DNA from: Gammaproteobacteria bacterium
Lineage (GTDB): Bacteria; Pseudomonadota; Gammaproteobacteria; Burkholderiales; Burkholderiaceae_B
Direction of reading: 5' to 3'
NCBI GenBank assembly: GCA_030832095.1
Contig: JAURJT010000049.1
Coordinates: 1-64,000 of the forward strand
DNA length: 64,000 bases
In this document: positions 56,361 to 64,000 of the stretch, in pieces
How the letters are laid out: each line of letters begins with the position of its first letter
Numbering within the stretch: position 1 is the first letter of the stretch
Made by a program: the position numbers and the translations under genes
Notes under the pieces: generated by a model
Databases searched by the model: none
The model's input: only the letters and a program-made list of their open reading frames with translations
What the model was told of the DNA's origin: nothing

Positions 56361-58004
56361 CTAGGCAGGTAAAGTGAGATAGTGCAGAGCTAAGTTTTTA
56401 AAGGCTTCGACGCCAGGATCTTTGTTTGGCAATTCTTGCACAATGATCTGACCCACACTGTCGGCGAGTGCGTGGGCAAGCTTTGCATCTAAAAACAATA
56501 AACGCGAGCGCCGTGCAAGTACGTCTTCGACTGTGCGTGCGTATTCGTGGCGCACGGCAAAGCGCACCATGGCCACGGTGAGGCCGCCACCTAGGTGACG
56601 TTCGGCTCCAGGTAACTGAGTGACCTCCTCTGCCTCGTCGCCATAAGCTTTTAAACCGGGCGCTTCGTACATAGGGTGATCGACCTTGCTGCCCGTTTGA
56701 GCACCGACTAAGGCTAGGTTGGCTGTCACGCAGGCTTGGCGCTCGGGTAAAAGTTTGGCGTCCACACAGTGCTTTAACACGTCTTGTGCCATGGCACGAT
56801 AGGTGGTCCATTTGCCGCCGGTCACGGTCACCATCTTGCTTTTGCTAATGAGTACAGTGTGCTCGCGGCTAATGGCCTTGGTATTACCGTGTTCATCTTT
56901 TGGCGGTTTGACCAAGGGACGCAGGCCCACCCAGATACTTTTTATATCTGCGCGCGTCGGTGCGCGTGTGAGGTAGCGGGCAGATTCGCGCAAAATAAAT
57001 TCGAGTTCTTCTGCATAAGGCTCTGGTTCACGGCTCAAATCGTGACGTGGGGTATCGGTCGTGCCGATAATGACTTTGCCTAACCACGGTACTGCAAACA
57101 GTACGCGTCCATCCGAGGTGTGCGGCACAATGATAGCGTGCTCGCCCGCTAAAAATTCGCGATCGACCACCACGTGTACGCCTTGGCTTGGCGCGACCAT
57201 CGCCACGCTTTGAAGACTCGCCGCGGCGTCATCTTTTTGTCGTAGCGCATCGACCCAGACTCCGGCGGCATTGACAACGCAGTTGGCTTTAATTGGGTAG
57301 ATTTGTTGAGTTTCGTGATCTTGTGCAAGTAAGCCCGTGATTTGACCCTGGTAATCTGGTGCAGATGAGCTGGTGTCTAGACCATCGCTGTGTGTCAGTT
57401 CTAGTGCGCTGCAATAGTTAATCAGTAAGGCACCGCGCTGTGCGGCGGTGCGTGCCAGTGCTAAGGCCAAGCGCGCATCGTCAAATTGGCCATCCCAGTA
57501 TTTGACTGAACCTTTTAAGCCCTTAGTATGAAGATTAGGAACGTGTTTGAGCGTCTCGTGTGCACCCCAAAAACGCGTGCGGCCTAAACTGCGTTTGCCT
57601 GAGAGCGCGTCATACAACAGCAAACCCGCACCATAAAACGGGATCTCCCAAAACTTGTAGCAAGGCAAAATAAAGGCAAGCGGTTGCGCTAGGTGCGCCG
57701 CGTTATGTAACAAGGTTGTACGTTCGTGTAATGCTTCGTACACCAAGGACACGTTGCCTTGTGCAAGATAACGCACGCCGCCATGTACGAGCTTGGTTGA
57801 GCGTGACGAGGTGCCTTTTGCAAAATCGGTCGCGTCAATCAGAACGACCGAATAGCCACGCGAGGCCGCATCCAGTGCCAAGCCTAAGCCCGTGGCGCCA
57901 CCTCCAATGATGGCAAGATCGTAGGTTCTGTTTTCAGCCAAACGCGCTAGCAGTTGTGCGCGATCAGTCCGAAGTGGTGCGCGTGATGCTTGGTCGGTAT
58001 GCAT
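56361..58004 (-). CDS. glpD: Glycerol-3-phosphate dehydrogenase
   Basis: 547 residues from ATG 58004, which overlaps the glpK stop (TGATG). The reading to 58046 lies inside glpK. FAD motif LAIIGGGATGLGLALDAASRGY near residue 30-51, GTSSRSTKLVHGGVRYL near 63-79, and the C-terminal DAO_C region with ARRSRLLFLDAKLA near 495. It is the aerobic quinone-linked enzyme that oxidises glycerol-3-phosphate to DHAP at the inner membrane. It is last in the operon with glpK, FGE, sulfatase and ABC genes and is followed by a terminator candidate. Confidence 0.96.
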   Translation of the reverse strand: MHTDQASRAPLRTDRAQLLARLAENRTYDLAIIGGGATGLGLALDAASRGYSVVLIDATDFAKGTSSRSTKLVHGGVRYLAQGNVSLVYEALHERTTLLHNAAHLAQPLAFILPCYKFWEIPFYGAGLLLYDALSGKRSLGRTRFWGAHETLKHVPNLHTKGLKGSVKYWDGQFDDARLALALARTAAQRGALLINYCSALELTHSDGLDTSSSAPDYQGQITGLLAQDHETQQIYPIKANCVVNAAGVWVDALRQKDDAAASLQSVAMVAPSQGVHVVVDREFLAGEHAIIVPHTSDGRVLFAVPWLGKVIIGTTDTPRHDLSREPEPYAEELEFILRESARYLTRAPTRADIKSIWVGLRPLVKPPKDEHGNTKAISREHTVLISKSKMVTVTGGKWTTYRAMAQDVLKHCVDAKLLPERQACVTANLALVGAQTGSKVDHPMYEAPGLKAYGDEAEEVTQLPGAERHLGGGLTVAMVRFAVRHEYARTVEDVLARRSRLLFLDAKLAHALADSVGQIIVQELPNKDPGVEAFKNLALHYLTLPA

Positions 58005-59506
58005 CAAGAGGCCCAGCCTTTTGCGCGTTCGAGTGCTTGATGCCATCTTGCCAGTTTTGCATCGCGGTCGGCAGACGCCATGCTAGGTTCGAATCTACGA
58101 TCAACCGACCACTGCGTGGCAATGTCTTTTGTGCTTGACCACAGGCCAACGGCAAGGCCAGCCAGATAGGCGGCACCGAGTGCTGTGGTTTCGGTGACGT
58201 TCGGGCGTACCACCGGGACCCCTAGAAAATCTGCCTGCATTTGCATCAGCAGATCATTTTTTGACGCCCCGCCGTCGACACGTAATTCGGCCAGGGCGAT
58301 GCCAGAGTCTTTTGCCATTGCATCAAACACATCCGCCACCTGTAGTGCAATCGCTTCAAGCGCTGCACGCGCGATATGGGCTTTGGTGGTGCCTCGTGTC
58401 ATACCGATTAATGTGCCACGGGCATTGCCGTCCCAGATCGGTGCGCCTAAGCCGGTAAAGGCGGGCACCAAGTAGGTGTCAGCGACATCTGGCACGCTGG
58501 CGGCGAGTGCTTCGACTTCGGCGGCTGACGAGATAATATTTAAACCGTCGCGTAGCCACTGAATTGTGGCGCCACCCATAAAGACCGAGGCCTCAAGGCA
58601 GTAGGTGGTGGCGAGTGGCTGTGCCGACGCTTCAAGGCGCTGCCAGCCCACGGTGGTGAGTAATTTATTTTGGCTGACGACCGGTTGATGTCCAGTATTG
58701 AGCAGCATGAAGCACCCGGTGCCATAGGTGTTCTTGGCCATACCAGGTTCAAAACAGGCTTGGCCGAAGGTTGCCGCCTGTTGATCCCCGATCATCGAGG
58801 CGATCGGGATGGCACGCCCAAAGAGGCTTGGATCGGTGTGCGCCACAATGCCTGAACTTGGCATCACTGTCGGTAAGACCGAGCGCGGAATCCTGAGTAA
58901 GGCAAGCAGCTCGTCATCCCAGGCGAGGGTGTGTAAATTGAACAGGAGTGTGCGCGAGGCATTGCTGGGGTCTGTGACGTGCGCCTGGCCCTTGGTCAGG
59001 TTCCAGACAAGCCAGCTATCCACTGTGCCAAAGGCGAGTTCACCACGCTCAGCGCGGGTACGTGCGCCTGGGATGTTATCGAGTAGCCAAGCTAGTTTGG
59101 TGCCTGAAAAATAAGCGTCTAACACTAAACCGGTTTTTTCTTGGATGAAGGTCTGATGGCCTTGTTGCCTCAACGCGTTGCAGTGTTCAACCGTACGACG
59201 GTCTTGCCAAACAATCGCGTTGGCCAAGGGTAGACCGGTTTGACGATCCCACAGCACAGTGGTTTCGCGTTGATTGGTGATGGCGATTGCCGCGACGCTG
59301 TCGGTCGTTGCGGCAGGAGTCAGTACGTCTTTGAGGACCCGCAACTGGGTTTGCCAGATTTCAAGCGCGTCATGTTCAACCCAACCGGGCTGTGGAAAAA
59401 TTTGTTTGAATTCGCTTTGAGCGGTGCGCACGCTTTGGCCTTGCGCATTGAACAAAATCGCGCGAGAGCTTGTGGTGCCTTGATCGAGTGCGAGGATATG
59501 GGTCAT
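58004..59506 (-). CDS. glpK: Glycerol kinase
   Basis: 500 residues. FGGY-family kinase: N-terminal phosphate motif [19 protein letters not shown] near residue 5-23, [10 protein letters not shown] near 101, and C-terminal [36 protein letters not shown] (parts) near residue 391 matching FGGY signature 2. It phosphorylates glycerol to glycerol-3-phosphate. It starts 18 bp after the formylglycine-generating enzyme gene, within one operon, and runs into glpD with a 1-bp overlap. No glpF or glpR is visible; the adjoining ABC genes may provide uptake. Confidence 0.97.
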
Positions 59507-59524
59507 AGATCGTATTTGTTGTAA

Positions 59525-60514
59525 CTAAACATTACCCGCCACCCGGAAGCCGCAATTGCTAGACGTGGTTGAGGGTGTGTTCGCACCTCGTGCTGCAAGT
59601 CGGTAGCGATTGCAATAAGAGTCGTGGCATAAAAAAGATCCACCTCGCATTGAACGTTTGCCCGTTGAAATGGAGTACAGAGGGTTTTCGCGACTGGTGC
59701 TGACATGATAGTCCGAACTAAACCAGTCGGCGCACCATTCCCAGACATTGCCGACGGTATTGAAAAGCCCAAAGCCATTTGGCTCATAGCTCTGCGCCGC
59801 CTGTGGCTCTGGCTGCCATCCTTCGCGCGGTGCATTTGGAAACTCCCCCTGCCAGATATTGCAGGGCAAGGATTGGTTCATCTGAAGCGTGTCACCCCAG
59901 GCATAGCGTTTCTCAGGTAGCCCGCCGCGTGCCGCGCACTCCCATTGAGCCTCAGTCGGCAGGCTGACCCCGGCCCACTCGCAGTAGGCTTGGGCGTCAT
60001 GCCAGGAAATGTGTACAACAGGGTGCTCAGGAATGGTCAGGTGACTCGAGCCTGGTCCAGACGGGCGTTGCCAACACGCGTCTGGAAGATCGACCCACCA
60101 TACGAGATCGTTTGAAACTGGAGTGACAGTTTTTTTTAGAGCCTGAGACAGTTGCAAATAAAAAACAAAGGATGAGCCTAGCCGCTCTGCTTCAGTGACA
60201 TATTGCGTATCGCGAACAAACTGATTGAATTGACGATTGGTGACTGTTGTGGGGGCGATCCGAAAGGCGTCCAGTTTGACTAAGCGCGCCGGACCTTCGC
60301 CGTCGTCTTGAAAACCGATGTTTTCATTGGTGCCCATCACAAAAGAGTTGCCGGCGATTGCGATTAAGTCGCTGTGCTGTTGTGCGTGAGCGGCTGTCGT
60401 GCCGGCGTTGGTTGCCGTGCCGACAAGCGCGTTAGATGCAAGTTGCTCGGCAGTTGGCAATACTTCTGCTTGCGGTAAAGACCGCTGCGCCGAGCAGCAG
60501 GCTTTATGTTGCAT
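59525..60514 (-). CDS. Formylglycine-generating enzyme (SUMF1 family)
   Basis: 329 residues without signal peptide. The FGE-sulfatase fold starts near residue 45 (LIAIAGNSFVMGTNE) with LPTEAQWECAARGG near 190 and NVWEWCADWFSSDYH near 253. The C-terminus has GGSFLCHDSYCNRYRLAARG: both redox-active Cys of true FGE, C296 and C301 spaced C-x4-C, so this should be a genuine formylglycine former rather than a generic SUMF1 protein. It oxidises the sulfatase C-x-P-S-R Cys to formylglycine. It starts directly on the base after the sulfatase stop (0-bp gap) and precedes glpK by 18 bp. Confidence 0.93.
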   Translation of the reverse strand: MQHKACCSAQRSLPQAEVLPTAEQLASNALVGTATNAGTTAAHAQQHSDLIAIAGNSFVMGTNENIGFQDDGEGPARLVKLDAFRIAPTTVTNRQFNQFVRDTQYVTEAERLGSSFVFYLQLSQALKKTVTPVSNDLVWWVDLPDACWQRPSGPGSSHLTIPEHPVVHISWHDAQAYCEWAGVSLPTEAQWECAARGGLPEKRYAWGDTLQMNQSLPCNIWQGEFPNAPREGWQPEPQAAQSYEPNGFGLFNTVGNVWEWCADWFSSDYHVSTSRENPLYSISTGKRSMRGGSFLCHDSYCNRYRLAARGANTPSTTSSNCGFRVAGNV

Positions 60515-62134
60515 TTAGTCTTTTTCCCAAAACGCGCGAGTGACACCTTGGCTGCGCATGAGTTCGACAATTTTTTCACGCGGCAACACGCCGCAGCGCT
60601 TGGCCCAGGCGTCGTATTGCAGCGTCATCTCTGCGACGCGCTCAGGATGTATCGCCGACAAATCATTGAGCTCGGTACGGTCGGCCTCCATGTCGTACAG
60701 CTCCCAGTCGCAAGGGTAACGCTTCACCAATTTCCATTTGCCGACTCGGATGGCCGCGTTGCCTTCGTGCTCCCAAAACATCGGTGGCCGTTCAGTGGTG
60801 TCACCCTTGAAAGCGCTGGTTAATGAGTGTCCTTCGAGCGCGGCAATTTGATGCCCTGCATGCTGTTCAGGGTAAGGTGTCTGGGTGATGTCAAGAATCG
60901 TTGCCATAATGTCAGGCAAGTACCCTGGCGAATGTCTGACAGCACCTCGGTCTGAGATGCCTGTTGGCCAATGCATAATGAGCGGCGTGGCAACGCCGCC
61001 CTCGTGAATCCAGTGTTTGTAAAGCCTGAAAGGTGTGTTTGACAGGTTGGCCCATGCGGGGCCGTAACTTTGATAGGTGTCTTCGGGGCCGGGCATCCGC
61101 GAGGTGTCATTGCCAAAATGCACTGGCTTACCGTCGCGTGTTTTAGCGCGGGCGATCATGAGCTTGTCGACAAGCTCATCAATTGATACGCCTTCAGGGA
61201 TGTCTTCTGCGCAAGCGCCATTATCAGACATAAAGATCACAAGCGTATTGTCAAGTTCACCGGCCTCTTCGATGGCTTGCAAAATACGGCCGATGCCTTG
61301 ATCCATTCTGTCGATCTGCGCGGCATAGACTTCCATACAGCGTAGTAACCAGGCTTTTTGTTCGGCATCTTCCCAGCTCGGTTGGGTCGGGTCGCGGTCG
61401 GTCAGCGGCCATGAGTCTTTTAGGATGCCAGACTTGACCAACCGCTCGAGTCGCTCTTTGCGCAGGGTATCCCAGCCGCTATCAAACCGCCCTTTATATT
61501 TTTTGATGTCTTCTTCGTGGGCATGTAACGGCCAATGCGGTGCGGTGTAAGCCACGTAAGTAAAAAATGGTTGAGCAGGGGACGAAGCGTAGTGTTGCTT
61601 AATGTAAGTGACAGCTTGGTCGCTGATCGCGTCGGTATAAAAGAAATTTTTATCATCGCGAGCCTCGTGCTCGGCATTTTTATTGTCGCGAGTCAGCGTG
61701 TTGGGATCGTAAAAACTGCCTGCGCCGATGATCGTGCCAAAAAATTCATCAAAGCCTCGTTGTTTAGGCCACGAATTGGTAGGTTCGCGCAAATTGCTTG
61801 ACACGTGCCACTTACCGCTCATGTAGGTTTTGTAATGGCTCGCCTTTAAGGCTTCTGGAATCGTGACACAGCGCTGATTCAGGTTGCCTGCGTACCCTTC
61901 GGGGCCGCTGTCATAGGTCAAGATTCCGATGCCGGTCTGATGCGGATGCAAGCCCGTCATGAGCGAGGCGCGTGAGGGACTGCAGCGAGCCGTATTGTAG
62001 AACTGTGAAAAGCGTAAACCGCCAGCGGCCAGGCGATCCAAGTTGGGTGTTTCAATCTCGCCGCCATAGCAGCCGATATCAGAAAAACCCATGTCATCAT
62101 TTAGGATCAAGACAATATTTGGTTTCTTACTCAT
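60515..62134 (-). CDS. Formylglycine-dependent sulfatase (AtsA-like, cytoplasmic type)
   Basis: 539 residues, starting MSKKPNIVLILNDDMGFSDI with metal-binding DD at 13-14 and no signal peptide. CSPSRASLMTG has the formylglycine precursor C51 (same position as in P. aeruginosa AtsA); MSGKWHV near residue 109 and IFMSDNGACAED near 303 hold the Lys/His and Asp-Asn metal residues. It hydrolyses a sulfate ester; AtsA-type enzymes also act on aryl sulfates. AGGA lies 6 bp before the ATG. It is in a single operon with ABC transport, FGE and glycerol genes. The natural substrate cannot be told from sequence. Confidence 0.93.
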   Translation of the reverse strand: MSKKPNIVLILNDDMGFSDIGCYGGEIETPNLDRLAAGGLRFSQFYNTARCSPSRASLMTGLHPHQTGIGILTYDSGPEGYAGNLNQRCVTIPEALKASHYKTYMSGKWHVSSNLREPTNSWPKQRGFDEFFGTIIGAGSFYDPNTLTRDNKNAEHEARDDKNFFYTDAISDQAVTYIKQHYASSPAQPFFTYVAYTAPHWPLHAHEEDIKKYKGRFDSGWDTLRKERLERLVKSGILKDSWPLTDRDPTQPSWEDAEQKAWLLRCMEVYAAQIDRMDQGIGRILQAIEEAGELDNTLVIFMSDNGACAEDIPEGVSIDELVDKLMIARAKTRDGKPVHFGNDTSRMPGPEDTYQSYGPAWANLSNTPFRLYKHWIHEGGVATPLIMHWPTGISDRGAVRHSPGYLPDIMATILDITQTPYPEQHAGHQIAALEGHSLTSAFKGDTTERPPMFWEHEGNAAIRVGKWKLVKRYPCDWELYDMEADRTELNDLSAIHPERVAEMTLQYDAWAKRCGVLPREKIVELMRSQGVTRAFWEKD

Positions 62135-62156
62135 AGCAATCCTGTATGTAAAAAGG

Positions 62157-63212
62157 CTAAAGACGCTGACCTGTCAGAGGGTCAAACAAATGCACGGTTG
62201 CGGGCTGACAACTGACTTTAATCGTTTCATTTTCTTTAATCAGCTGAGTGTGCGGTAGCTTCATTTTGATAGGTTGTTGGTCTATCAACAACGCGACAGT
62301 GATGCTGTCACCTAAATCTTCAATGAGTTCAACTGTTGCGCTCACGCCCTCGGCGCTGGGCGCTAAATCAGAAGGTCGAACCCCAAAGATCACTTCGCGT
62401 GATGCAGCCGTGCTCTGTTCAATTTGAAGGCTATCACCATTCTTAAAGGTGATGGTTGAGCCTTGCCATTGGGCGGCAAGCAGGTTCATGGGTGGGCTGC
62501 CAATAAAGCTGGCTACGGTCAACGTGGCAGGGCGAGCAAAGATATTTCTAGGGGTATCAATTTGTACGATTTTCCCTTCCATAAAAACTGCAACACGGTC
62601 GGCCAGCGTCATCGCCTCTTCTTGATCGTGAGTGACATATACCGTTGTGACGTTCAAAGACCGCTGTAGTTTACGTAATTCGATTCGGGTTTCTAAGCGT
62701 AGTTTGGCGTCAAGATTAGATAAGGGCTCATCGAGTAAAAATAGGCGAGGTTGGCGCACAATTGCGCGTGCCAGTGCAACGCGTTGTTGTTGACCGCCCG
62801 ACAGTTGCCCGGGCTTGCGATCCATCAGATGCTCGATATTGACTTTGGTTGCCGCCTCTCGTGCAGCAAGATTTCTAGACGACTGATTTTGTCCAATCAT
62901 CTTTAACGGAAAGGCGATGTTTTCTTCAACCGACATGTGCGGATACAGCGCATAGCTTTGAAAGACCATCGCGACATCACGTTCTCCGGGCTCTTTGCTC
63001 GTGACGTCTTCGTCATCCATAAAAACCTTGCCAGCACTGAGTGACTCAAGCCCGGCAAGCACTCTGAGAGTGGTTGTTTTGCCCGAGCCTGAGGGCCCTA
63101 ACAGCACAAAGAATTCACCCGCTTTGATGTCGAGATCAATACCGTGCAAGACCGTTAGCTGATCGTGTTTTTTGACCGCACCCTCGATGCGAATGCTGCC
63201 GCGCTGAGTCAT
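62157..63212 (-). CDS. ABC transporter ATP-binding protein, carbohydrate/glycerol type
   Basis: 351 residues from ATG 63212, which overlaps the permease stop (ATGA); the reading to 63335 is a shadow of the permease. Walker A LLGPSGSGKTTTLRVL near residue 37-52, Q-loop QSYALYPHMSVEENIAFPLKM near 84-104, signature LSGGQQQRVALARA near 137-150, Walker B LFLLDEPLSNLDAKLR near 157-172, and a C-terminal TOBE/MalK-like domain from about 235. It is of the MalK/UgpC class that powers sugar, glycerol or G3P importers. The sulfatase gene follows after 22 bp. Confidence 0.95.
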   Translation of the reverse strand: MTQRGSIRIEGAVKKHDQLTVLHGIDLDIKAGEFFVLLGPSGSGKTTTLRVLAGLESLSAGKVFMDDEDVTSKEPGERDVAMVFQSYALYPHMSVEENIAFPLKMIGQNQSSRNLAAREAATKVNIEHLMDRKPGQLSGGQQQRVALARAIVRQPRLFLLDEPLSNLDAKLRLETRIELRKLQRSLNVTTVYVTHDQEEAMTLADRVAVFMEGKIVQIDTPRNIFARPATLTVASFIGSPPMNLLAAQWQGSTITFKNGDSLQIEQSTAASREVIFGVRPSDLAPSAEGVSATVELIEDLGDSITVALLIDQQPIKMKLPHTQLIKENETIKVSCQPATVHLFDPLTGQRL

Positions 63213-64000
63213 CGTCGCCCTCCGCCTTTGACTGCGCCAACGGTTAAGCCCTTCACGATATGACGTTGTGCAGCTAAACCTATCAGGATCACAGGGGCCA
63301 TCGCGACGATGGCGGCTGCGGCCAGGCGCGCCCATTGAGTCTGCTCAACAGAAATAAAGTTGAACATCGCAACAGTGACGGGCCGCACGCGGTTACCGCC
63401 GAGCAACACAGAAAACATGAATTCATTCCATGAGTTGAGAAAGACAAAAATAGTTGTTACAGCGATGCCACCGCGCACTTGAGGCAAGATCACGTACCAA
63501 AGTGCGCGCAGCCGGCCGGCGCGATCAAGCAGGGCGGCTTCCTCCATCTCGAGCGGAATATCCTCAAAGTAAGACACCATTAGCCAGATGGCAAAGGGCA
63601 ACGAAAACGTCAGAAAGATCAGAATTAAACCCGAGTAGGTGTCTAGCCCTCCGATGCGTTGCAGCACCAGGTAATAGGGAATCACCAATCCCACTGGCGG
63701 TAGCATTTGCGTCACCAGTACATAAAAGCCACTGGTTTGCTTACCTGGGTATTTGAGGCGGGCAATCGCGTACGCGGCCGGTACCGAAAATAGCATTGTC
63801 AGTAGTGTGGCGGTGCTTGAAACGACGATGCTCGACCAGAGGTTGGGCAGGATTGAATCCGCACCGCTGAGTACGGCACGATAATTATCGAGCGTTGGCG
63901 TGAAAATCCAGACTGGCGGGTAGGCCAGCACGTCGCGTTCGGTCTTAAAGGATGTGAGGATTCCCCAAATCACCGGAAACGCCCAGACGGTAAGTAGCAG
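63209..64000 (-). CDS. ABC transporter permease, MalG/UgpE type, 5' end outside window
   Basis: 263 codons are present and the frame is open to the right edge, where LLLTVWAFPVIWGILTSFK is the first membrane helix; an internal GTG at 63973 is not the true start. It has about six helices and the EAA loop MEEAALLDRAGRLRALWYVILPQ near the middle of the visible part (EAALLDRAG...LP), which docks the ATPase. It overlaps the ATP-binding gene by 4 bp. The partner permease and the solute-binding protein are expected just beyond the window. Confidence 0.92.
   Translation of the reverse strand: MLLTVWAFPVIWGILTSFKTERDVLAYPPVWIFTPTLDNYRAVLSGADSILPNLWSSIVVSSTATLLTMLFSVPAAYAIARLKYPGKQTSGFYVLVTQMLPPVGLVIPYYLVLQRIGGLDTYSGLILIFLTFSLPFAIWLMVSYFEDIPLEMEEAALLDRAGRLRALWYVILPQVRGGIAVTTIFVFLNSWNEFMFSVLLGGNRVRPVTVAMFNFISVEQTQWARLAAAAIVAMAPVILIGLAAQRHIVKGLTVGAVKGGGRR

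Follow-up and report, generated by a model that had tools for sequence, protein, structure and literature searches.

A LacI-linked sulfatase and ABC importer module beside glpK and glpD in a Burkholderiaceae_B genome, and its possible role in the use of a sulfated glycerol compound

Genes and proteins of the locus

We analyzed a 64,000-nucleotide stretch of DNA (the window) from a Gammaproteobacteria bacterium of the Burkholderiaceae_B, which comprises bases 1-64000 of the 125.5-kb contig JAURJT010000049.1 (assembly GCA_030832095.1). Its end carries genes for a sulfatase, a formylglycine-generating enzyme (FGE), part of an ATP-binding cassette (ABC) importer and two enzymes of glycerol metabolism, from which an earlier note, made from the sequence alone, had proposed the import and desulfation of a sulfated glycerol compound. 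All six genes lie on the minus strand, with the positions and families given in that note. The first, for a CUT1 ABC permease (MalG/UgpE-like; 63209-64000), is open at the window end and runs on to 64048; it was recognized from its open reading frame and from domain and NCBIfam profiles, with every NCBIfam score under the respective cut-off. It is followed by genes for a CUT1 ABC ATPase of the MalK/UgpC class (62157-63212, profiles), a 539-residue S1 sulfatase (60515-62134; profile, alignments and structure search), an FGE (59525-60514; profile and alignment to a solved FGE), glycerol kinase (glpK, 58004-59506) and a GlpD-like glycerol-3-phosphate dehydrogenase (56361-58046). The ATPase frame as listed spans 62157-63335, and the internal ATG at 63212 agrees with the 4-bp overlap with the permease gene. 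The gaps from permease through ATPase, sulfatase and FGE to glpK are indeed -4, 22, 0 and 18 bp, a spacing that gives good support to the single transcript predicted earlier. The -1 bp gap reported between glpK and glpD holds only if translation of glpD starts at its second ATG (residue 15); with a start at the first ATG, the two genes would overlap by 43 bp. A promoter and terminator scan of the module returned one promoter-like site, on the plus strand, against a shuffled mean of 5.6, and the same scan also missed the expected module promoter.

Extension past 64 kb, which the earlier note had recommended as a way to find the binding protein and any regulator, revealed both. A second permease gene and, upstream of it, a binding protein gene continue on the minus strand, and the divergent neighbor of the latter is a LacI-family gene (Pfam). 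The N-terminus of the binding protein contains a Tat-like R-R-K-V-L-K. The next genes are ugpBAEC, followed by genes read by eye as an amidohydrolase and components of a tripartite ATP-independent periplasmic (TRAP) transporter.

The sulfatase belongs to the S1 family on the basis of its domain score (210.8 bits for PF00884, cut-off 25), its C-S-P-S-R motif at residue 51, which fits C-x-P-S-R, and its catalytic and metal positions. Residues C51, P53 and R55 are invariant in 48 of 48 aligned homologues. The nearest solved structures are 7all and Pseudomonas aeruginosa AtsA (PaAtsA, 1hdh), which have the same fold (TM score normalized by query, 0.80-0.83) at 33-36% identity, and the start and length of the protein are as in AtsA. 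The catalytic and metal-binding residues D13, D14, C51, R55, K113, H115, H211, D317 and N318 of PaAtsA correspond to D13, D14, C51, R55, K108, H110, H200, D304 and N305 of the window sulfatase, a matching read by eye from a chain that is a Cys51 mutant. 7all is BT4683, and both it and AtsA belong to SulfAtlas subfamily S1_4; the window sulfatase itself is placed only near 1hdh and 7all. It differs from both in standing in a group of its own, whose members are 52-98% identical to the window protein in the best 80 of the 581 loci confirmed in a contig scan with the sulfatase alignment, and in being tied in most lineages to its own FGE and importer. Structure alignments drew on 48 of these 80 loci (window included) and on 26 binding proteins, and structure models gave the expected folds for the proteins modeled. 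Read by eye, the N-terminus (MSKKPNIVLILNDD) has no recognizable signal peptide. The choline-sulfatase BetC, an S1 enzyme that cleaves a small sulfate ester in the cytoplasm, offers a parallel, but the BetC model TIGR03417 gives the window protein only 102.8 bits against a cut-off of 433, and choline sulfate was rejected as its substrate on this ground.

The FGE scores 238 bits against the PF03781 cut-off of 23.3, and its C-H-D-S-Y-C aligns with C-H-E-S-Y-C of the solved FGE 5nxl, so that both catalytic cysteines are present. GlpK scores 716 bits with TIGR01311 (cut-off 590) and is a glycerol kinase by that model. The GlpD-like protein has DAO and DAO_C domains and falls below the cut-off of its best model, NF008899 (299 versus 360 bits); its pairing with glpK across the genus suggests that it works as GlpD. 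Within the genome assembly, which is 94% complete, glpK is the sole copy and the glpD-like gene the sole full-length copy.

The importer is of the CUT1 sugar type, with an SBP_bac_1 binding protein, two BPD permeases and a MalK-type ATPase with OB/TOBE domains. The Ugp glycerol 3-phosphate importer is also a CUT1 system, and the best model for the module ATPase is UgpC. However, none of the four module subunits qualifies as Ugp. The ATPase scores 410 bits (UgpC cut-off 432), permease G 77 bits (UgpE cut-off 297) and permease F 110 bits (UgpA cut-off 335), and the binding protein has no NCBIfam match at E ≤ 1e-20, whereas the adjacent ugpBAEC clears all four cut-offs (601/411, 404/335, 410/297 and 514/432 bits). 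The best structural matches of the binding protein are 5iai and 4rya; the latter is annotated as a sorbitol binder, and the two were reportedly solved with ribitol and mannitol. SmoF, the sulfoquinovosyl-glycerol binding protein, is a distant relative that likewise works with a CUT1 ABC importer and takes up a glycerol compound containing sulfur. Its substrates contain a C-S sulfonate that a sulfatase cannot cleave, and its clusters are not known to include a sulfatase or FGE.

Insertion of the module between glpK and ugpB

Comparison with relatives places the set from FGE to LacI, referred to here as the module, at a site that is otherwise empty. Among 16 relatives without the module at this position, nine have glpK and ugpB divergent and 150-338 bp apart (loci L175-L178, L180, L185 and L188-L190, the contig of L185 stopping inside ugpB); in the other seven, ugp is absent at glpK or the contig ends. 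The module lies between glpK and ugpB in the window and at L066 and L065, the contig of L065 stopping inside ugpB, and the contigs of L048 and L067 stop within the module. When four empty sites were aligned with the window contig by BLASTN, homology on the left extended to 59506-59507 in three, placing the junction at the glpK start codon, whereas one site matched only to 59497. On the right, homology resumed at 67837, about 160 bp before the ugpB start, in three sites and only within ugpB in the fourth. The insert of about 8.3 kb, which occupies 59507-64000 of the window and continues to about 67836, has replaced the native 5' region of glpK. Only weak short repeats were found at its ends. 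A stretch upstream of ugpB that includes AACTGTCA (contig positions 67837-67871) is kept in the window genome and in three module-free relatives and resembles half a Pho box.

These junctions bear on the age of the glycerol genes. GlpK is present at E ≤ 1e-120 in 28 of 32 genomes of the genus, and the window GlpK is nested within the GlpKs of the genus in a tree, which indicates that glpK and glpD did not arrive with the module. Both are vertically inherited in the genus and older than the module, and the empty site in relatives rules them out as an original part of it.

The module appears to have its own regulatory site. Of 29 LacI/binding-protein intergenic regions found, five were dropped as second copies from the same genome, and all 24 distinct regions that were left contain the operator TGYAAWCGWTTRCA, 17 of them as an exact match and the others with a single mismatch. 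The intergenic regions hold 40 sites in total, versus none elsewhere in those loci. This pattern was derived from the regions in which it was counted, and the independent check is its genome-wide distribution. The 3.87-Mb genome contains a single exact match, which falls in the LacI/binding-protein intergenic region (contig position 66502); a further 12 places match with one mismatch, and a reversed control pattern matches 7 in all. Even with two mismatches allowed, neither glpK nor ugpB has a site beside it. Provided that there is no internal promoter, the organism's only glpK and glpD would therefore answer to the module LacI.

Recurrence of glycerol genes beside the module

Orthologues of the sulfatase (at least 71% identity) occur in 16 of 268 family genomes, the window's own included and one being split over two contigs. 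An order-wide sample gave a match at E ≤ 1e-180 in 3 of 399 genomes, again with the window's own included. Among the matches listed, the named records closest to the window sulfatase are 97-98% identical and come from metagenome-assembled genomes called Alcaligenaceae or Burkholderiaceae, so that homology points to an organism of the Alcaligenaceae type. The set of a LacI or GntR regulator, binding protein, two permeases, ATPase, sulfatase and FGE recurs in Bordetella petrii, Variovorax, Achromobacter, Ramlibacter, Parapusillimonas, Pollutimonas, Bradyrhizobium, Xanthobacter and others, and cultured strains (for example, of Ramlibacter, Parapusillimonas, Pollutimonas, Xanthobacter and Bradyrhizobium) carry it. 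The module has probably spread horizontally.

The 59 loci with at least 64% sulfatase identity were grouped into 28 lineages by single linkage at 85% sulfatase identity. Genes were called with a simple codon-usage caller, and the counts for ABC, FGE and glpK were repeated by tblastn, which gave 19, 22 and 5 lineages, respectively. In an unselected ranking of neighbor families, the sulfatase is found in 28 lineages, FGE in 21, the ATPase, two permeases and binding protein in 19 each, LacI in 13, GntR-UTRA in 7, a TctC-type binding protein in 6 (Pfam) and glpK in 5. These are followed by glpD (3, plus 2 in a second cluster), GlpR/DeoR-like regulators (3) and GMC oxidoreductases (3), with all others in at most 2. 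After the module's own genes, glpK is outranked only by the TctC-type binding proteins, which are a many-copy family in these bacteria, and no catabolic family other than glpK/glpD recurs in more than three lineages.

The five glpK-positive lineages show three arrangements. Besides the window clade, the order FGE-glpK-glpD is found at L081 and L087 and, with a different GlpD, at L100, L101 and L115. At L084, a major facilitator superfamily (MFS) carrier, the sulfatase and FGE are followed by a GlpR-like gene on the other strand, glpD and glpK. In Xanthobacter aminoxidans (L104), genes for a GlpR-like regulator, GlpD, GlpK, an ABC importer, a GntR regulator, the sulfatase and FGE all run in one direction. 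The five GlpKs tested from other loci (L081, L104, L100, L084 and L062) all exceed the TIGR01311 cut-off. With NF008899, the GlpDs of L104 and L084 score 720 and 745 bits, those of L081 and L100 only 300 and 261, and these differing types point to glycerol genes of different origin. The two GlpR-like proteins match the DeoR/GlpR model best and stay below its cut-off (282 and 233 versus 331 bits); a further GlpR-like gene (211 bits) lies just upstream of the binding protein gene in Bradyrhizobium (L090).

The number of lineages is well above that expected by chance. For a mean locus of 19.6 kb per lineage and one glpK per 4.5-Mb genome, 0.11 glpK-positive lineages are expected versus the 5 observed, with P(≥5) = 1.4e-7; P(≥4), a stand-in for omitting the window lineage, is 6e-6. 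Across six settings (3.5-6 Mb, one or two glpK copies), P(≥5) lies between 3e-8 and 1.3e-5, and P(≥4) between 2e-6 and 2.3e-4. GlpK is single copy, with few exceptions, in the family genomes listed. The unselected ranking and this test together rule out chance adjacency. Genome-wide presence of glpK is uninformative as a test, because 231 of 268 family genomes have it. In the 28 loci with less than 64% sulfatase identity (among the best 80 of 581), tblastn detected no glpK.

How often the pairing arose was examined with trees. On the sulfatase tree, a quick tree with some long branches, 12 of 87 rows are glpK-positive and at least five state changes are needed. The GlpKs fall into four groups, namely the window, the L081/L087/L100 group, L084 and L104, the last two far apart.

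Related genes were also noted at several loci. In genome G071 (L062), glpK lies about 2 kb upstream of LacI; this case was left uncounted, its sulfatase being split over two contigs. In seven genomes of one genus (L063 and L191-L196), whose loci entered no statistics, glpD is divergent from glpK, and about 0.7-1.2 kb downstream of glpK are an FGE-like gene and a sulfatase from a different group, whose N-terminus looks, by eye, like that of a secreted protein. The FGE-like gene has C-A-A-N-F-C in place of C-H-x-x-Y-C at L063 and L196. In the single lineage of L100, L101 and L115, a second, distant sulfatase (23-24% identity) follows glpK-glpD (L100:15801-18768, L101:8854-11839 and L115:6778-8205), and the next gene, in L101 and, judged by similarity, in L100, encodes an AMP-binding ligase. 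In genomes G245 and G241, the gene immediately upstream of that for the module's binding protein, on the same strand, encodes an additional sulfatase from a different group (38%) (L057:14538-16106, L058:14546-16114 and L083:3506-5074, the last a named record like G245).

Proposed substrate and alternatives

Our data allow a mechanism to be proposed. A LacI-controlled, horizontally spread module would import a small sulfate monoester intact by means of its binding protein, two permeases and ATPase. The FGE would convert Cys51 of the cytoplasmic sulfatase into formylglycine, and the sulfatase would then free sulfate and an alcohol. The alcohol would most likely be glycerol, or be converted to it, the substrate being glyceryl sulfate or a close relative, and GlpK and GlpD would take it to dihydroxyacetone phosphate. 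In the window genome, the module was inserted between the divergent glpK and ugpBAEC and replaced the native glpK 5' region, thereby probably placing the only glpK and glpD under the module LacI promoter. As a whole, import and desulfation of a small sulfate ester of glycerol, with capture of glpK and glpD, is our best explanation, and we hold it to be evenly poised between right and wrong.

The cytoplasmic site of desulfation, which the earlier note had proposed, is well supported by the apparent lack of a signal peptide, the adjacent FGE and the variety of carriers in relatives. ABC importers accompany the sulfatase in 19 lineages; in the Rhodobacteraceae (L105 and L111), sulfatase and FGE flank a DctPQM TRAP transporter; and MFS carriers belong to the lineages of L084/L085 and L107 (Paenibacillus), where they were seen adjoining the sulfatase in L084 and L107. 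Three unrelated kinds of carrier beside one cytoplasmic-type sulfatase fit an ester that is imported whole and cleaved inside. A larger aglycone would call for further processing enzymes, and since no other family recurs that widely with the module, the simplest candidate is glyceryl sulfate. A sulfated glycoside that needs a glycosidase was rejected, as none was recognized among the neighbor families in at least two lineages, part of which were run through Pfam. The recurrence of glpK, glpD and GlpR-like genes in unrelated bacteria suggests that a sulfated glycerol compound serves as a nutrient that has not been described before. The earlier proposal of such a substrate therefore survives as the best inference, although the evidence now comes from this repeated pairing elsewhere, the glpK and glpD of the window being captured neighbors. 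More tentatively, we suggest a dedicated, horizontally spread glycerol monosulfate pathway in which ABC, TRAP or MFS uptake would lead to an S1 sulfatase of a new specificity group, with the module FGE, and to entry through GlpK and GlpD.

A number of observations weigh against our best explanation. No glpK was found in the stretch examined in 23 of the 28 lineages, some of whose contigs are short; together with the greater age of glpK and glpD in the genus, this means that, contrary to the earlier interpretation, the two genes are not generally part of the sulfatase system. At L084, the GlpR-like gene between FGE and glpD on the opposite strand makes the glycerol genes neighbors rather than part of a sulfatase operon. 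With moderate support (86, not starred), the GlpKs of L081, L087 and the L100 group form one cluster, and the number of independent recruitments may thus lie below five, with a minimum of three. Genomes G245 and G241, of the same genus as the window, have a 75% identical module elsewhere and keep glpK beside ugpB. Bradyrhizobium (L089, L090 and others), L078 and L095 have a gene of the enolase superfamily (MR_MLE) near the module instead of glpK, joined in Bradyrhizobium and L078, not L095, by a GMC oxidoreductase; these neighbors possibly mark another linked pathway. An NMT1-type ABC system is also seen by eye near the module in Bradyrhizobium and L095. By tblastn, six lineages have no FGE nearby, none was seen in Variovorax dokdonensis (L073), and five (L068, L074, L112, L119 and L120) have no ABC, TRAP or MFS carrier beside the sulfatase, the contigs of L074 and L120 beginning at the sulfatase or just before. 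In L065, from the close relative TE-Jun18-5, LacI is reduced to short pieces (L065:1037-1282) between ugpB and the binding protein gene, and repression is probably lost there. The nearest solved relatives of the binding protein are sugar or polyol binders, at only 26-27% identity. Finally, the nearest characterized sulfatases, in this respect unlike the enzyme proposed here, use aryl sulfates or 3-sulfo-galactose. According to the review PMC10154612, BT4683 belongs to S1_4 and is a 3-sulfo-galactose sulfatase.

Several of these points would fit a module whose substrate is a different small sulfate, of a sugar or polyol, or that accepts various esters, with the glycerol genes present through shared polyol loci or a tolerated insertion. 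The many lineages without glpK, the LacI and GntR-UTRA regulators, the sugar/polyol-type binding protein and the often broad specificity of AtsA-like enzymes would all be expected. We nevertheless consider this unlikely, because glpK recurs far over chance and no other catabolic family is found in more than three lineages. It is less probable still that the module serves general sulfur scavenging, like P. aeruginosa atsA, with the carbon of the ester irrelevant and glpK and glpD as passengers. The closeness of the sulfatase to 7all and PaAtsA and its patchy spread through the order agree with scavenging, but the module is paired with a local LacI, whose operator is present in every region compared, or with GntR-UTRA, not with a CysB/Cbl-type regulator, and glpK, glpD and GlpR-like neighbors recur. 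That the formylglycine enzyme cleaves a glycerophosphodiester after Ugp-like import, its products passing to GlpK and GlpD, as the adjacent true ugpBAEC, the Devosia phosphodiesterase genes described below and the use of formylglycine by phosphonate monoester hydrolase (PMH)/PehA enzymes might suggest, is very improbable, since the PehA model NF045661 gives 62.7 bits versus a cut-off of 900, the metal site is D-N (D304, N305) as in PaAtsA rather than the D-H of PMHs, and ugp is an old glpK neighbor outside the module; phosphodiester hydrolysis was rejected on these model scores and active-site residues. In Devosia oryzisoli (L112:425-9986), the region upstream of the sulfatase orthologue encodes a glycerophosphodiester phosphodiesterase (GDPD), a metallophosphoesterase, a type I phosphodiesterase and what looks by eye like an ABC importer of the dipeptide type, a further neighborhood with a glycerophosphate flavor.

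For a sulfated glycerol compound as the substrate, the literature search results that were inspected gave no account of bacterial glyceryl sulfate use, which also counts against it; nor did they turn up a described pathway with this gene set, in agreement with the earlier note. Phosphatidylglycerol sulfate of haloarchaea shows that head groups of glycerol sulfate occur naturally. Sulfated glycerol has been made chemically with tributylsulfoammonium betaine, according to Table 3 of PMC11625868. The parts of the module are all of known families; what is new is their combination, with a sulfated glycerol compound as the probable substrate.

Organic sulfate esters are a major sulfur pool, but pathways for uptake and use are known for only a few of the small ones. 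The module is a defined, testable gene set, with one binding protein, one sulfatase, one FGE, and one LacI with its operator. Its insertion into a promoter region shows how it can capture an organism's only glycerol genes. If the proposed substrate is correct, glyceryl sulfate would be a metabolite that soil and freshwater bacteria actually encounter in their environment.

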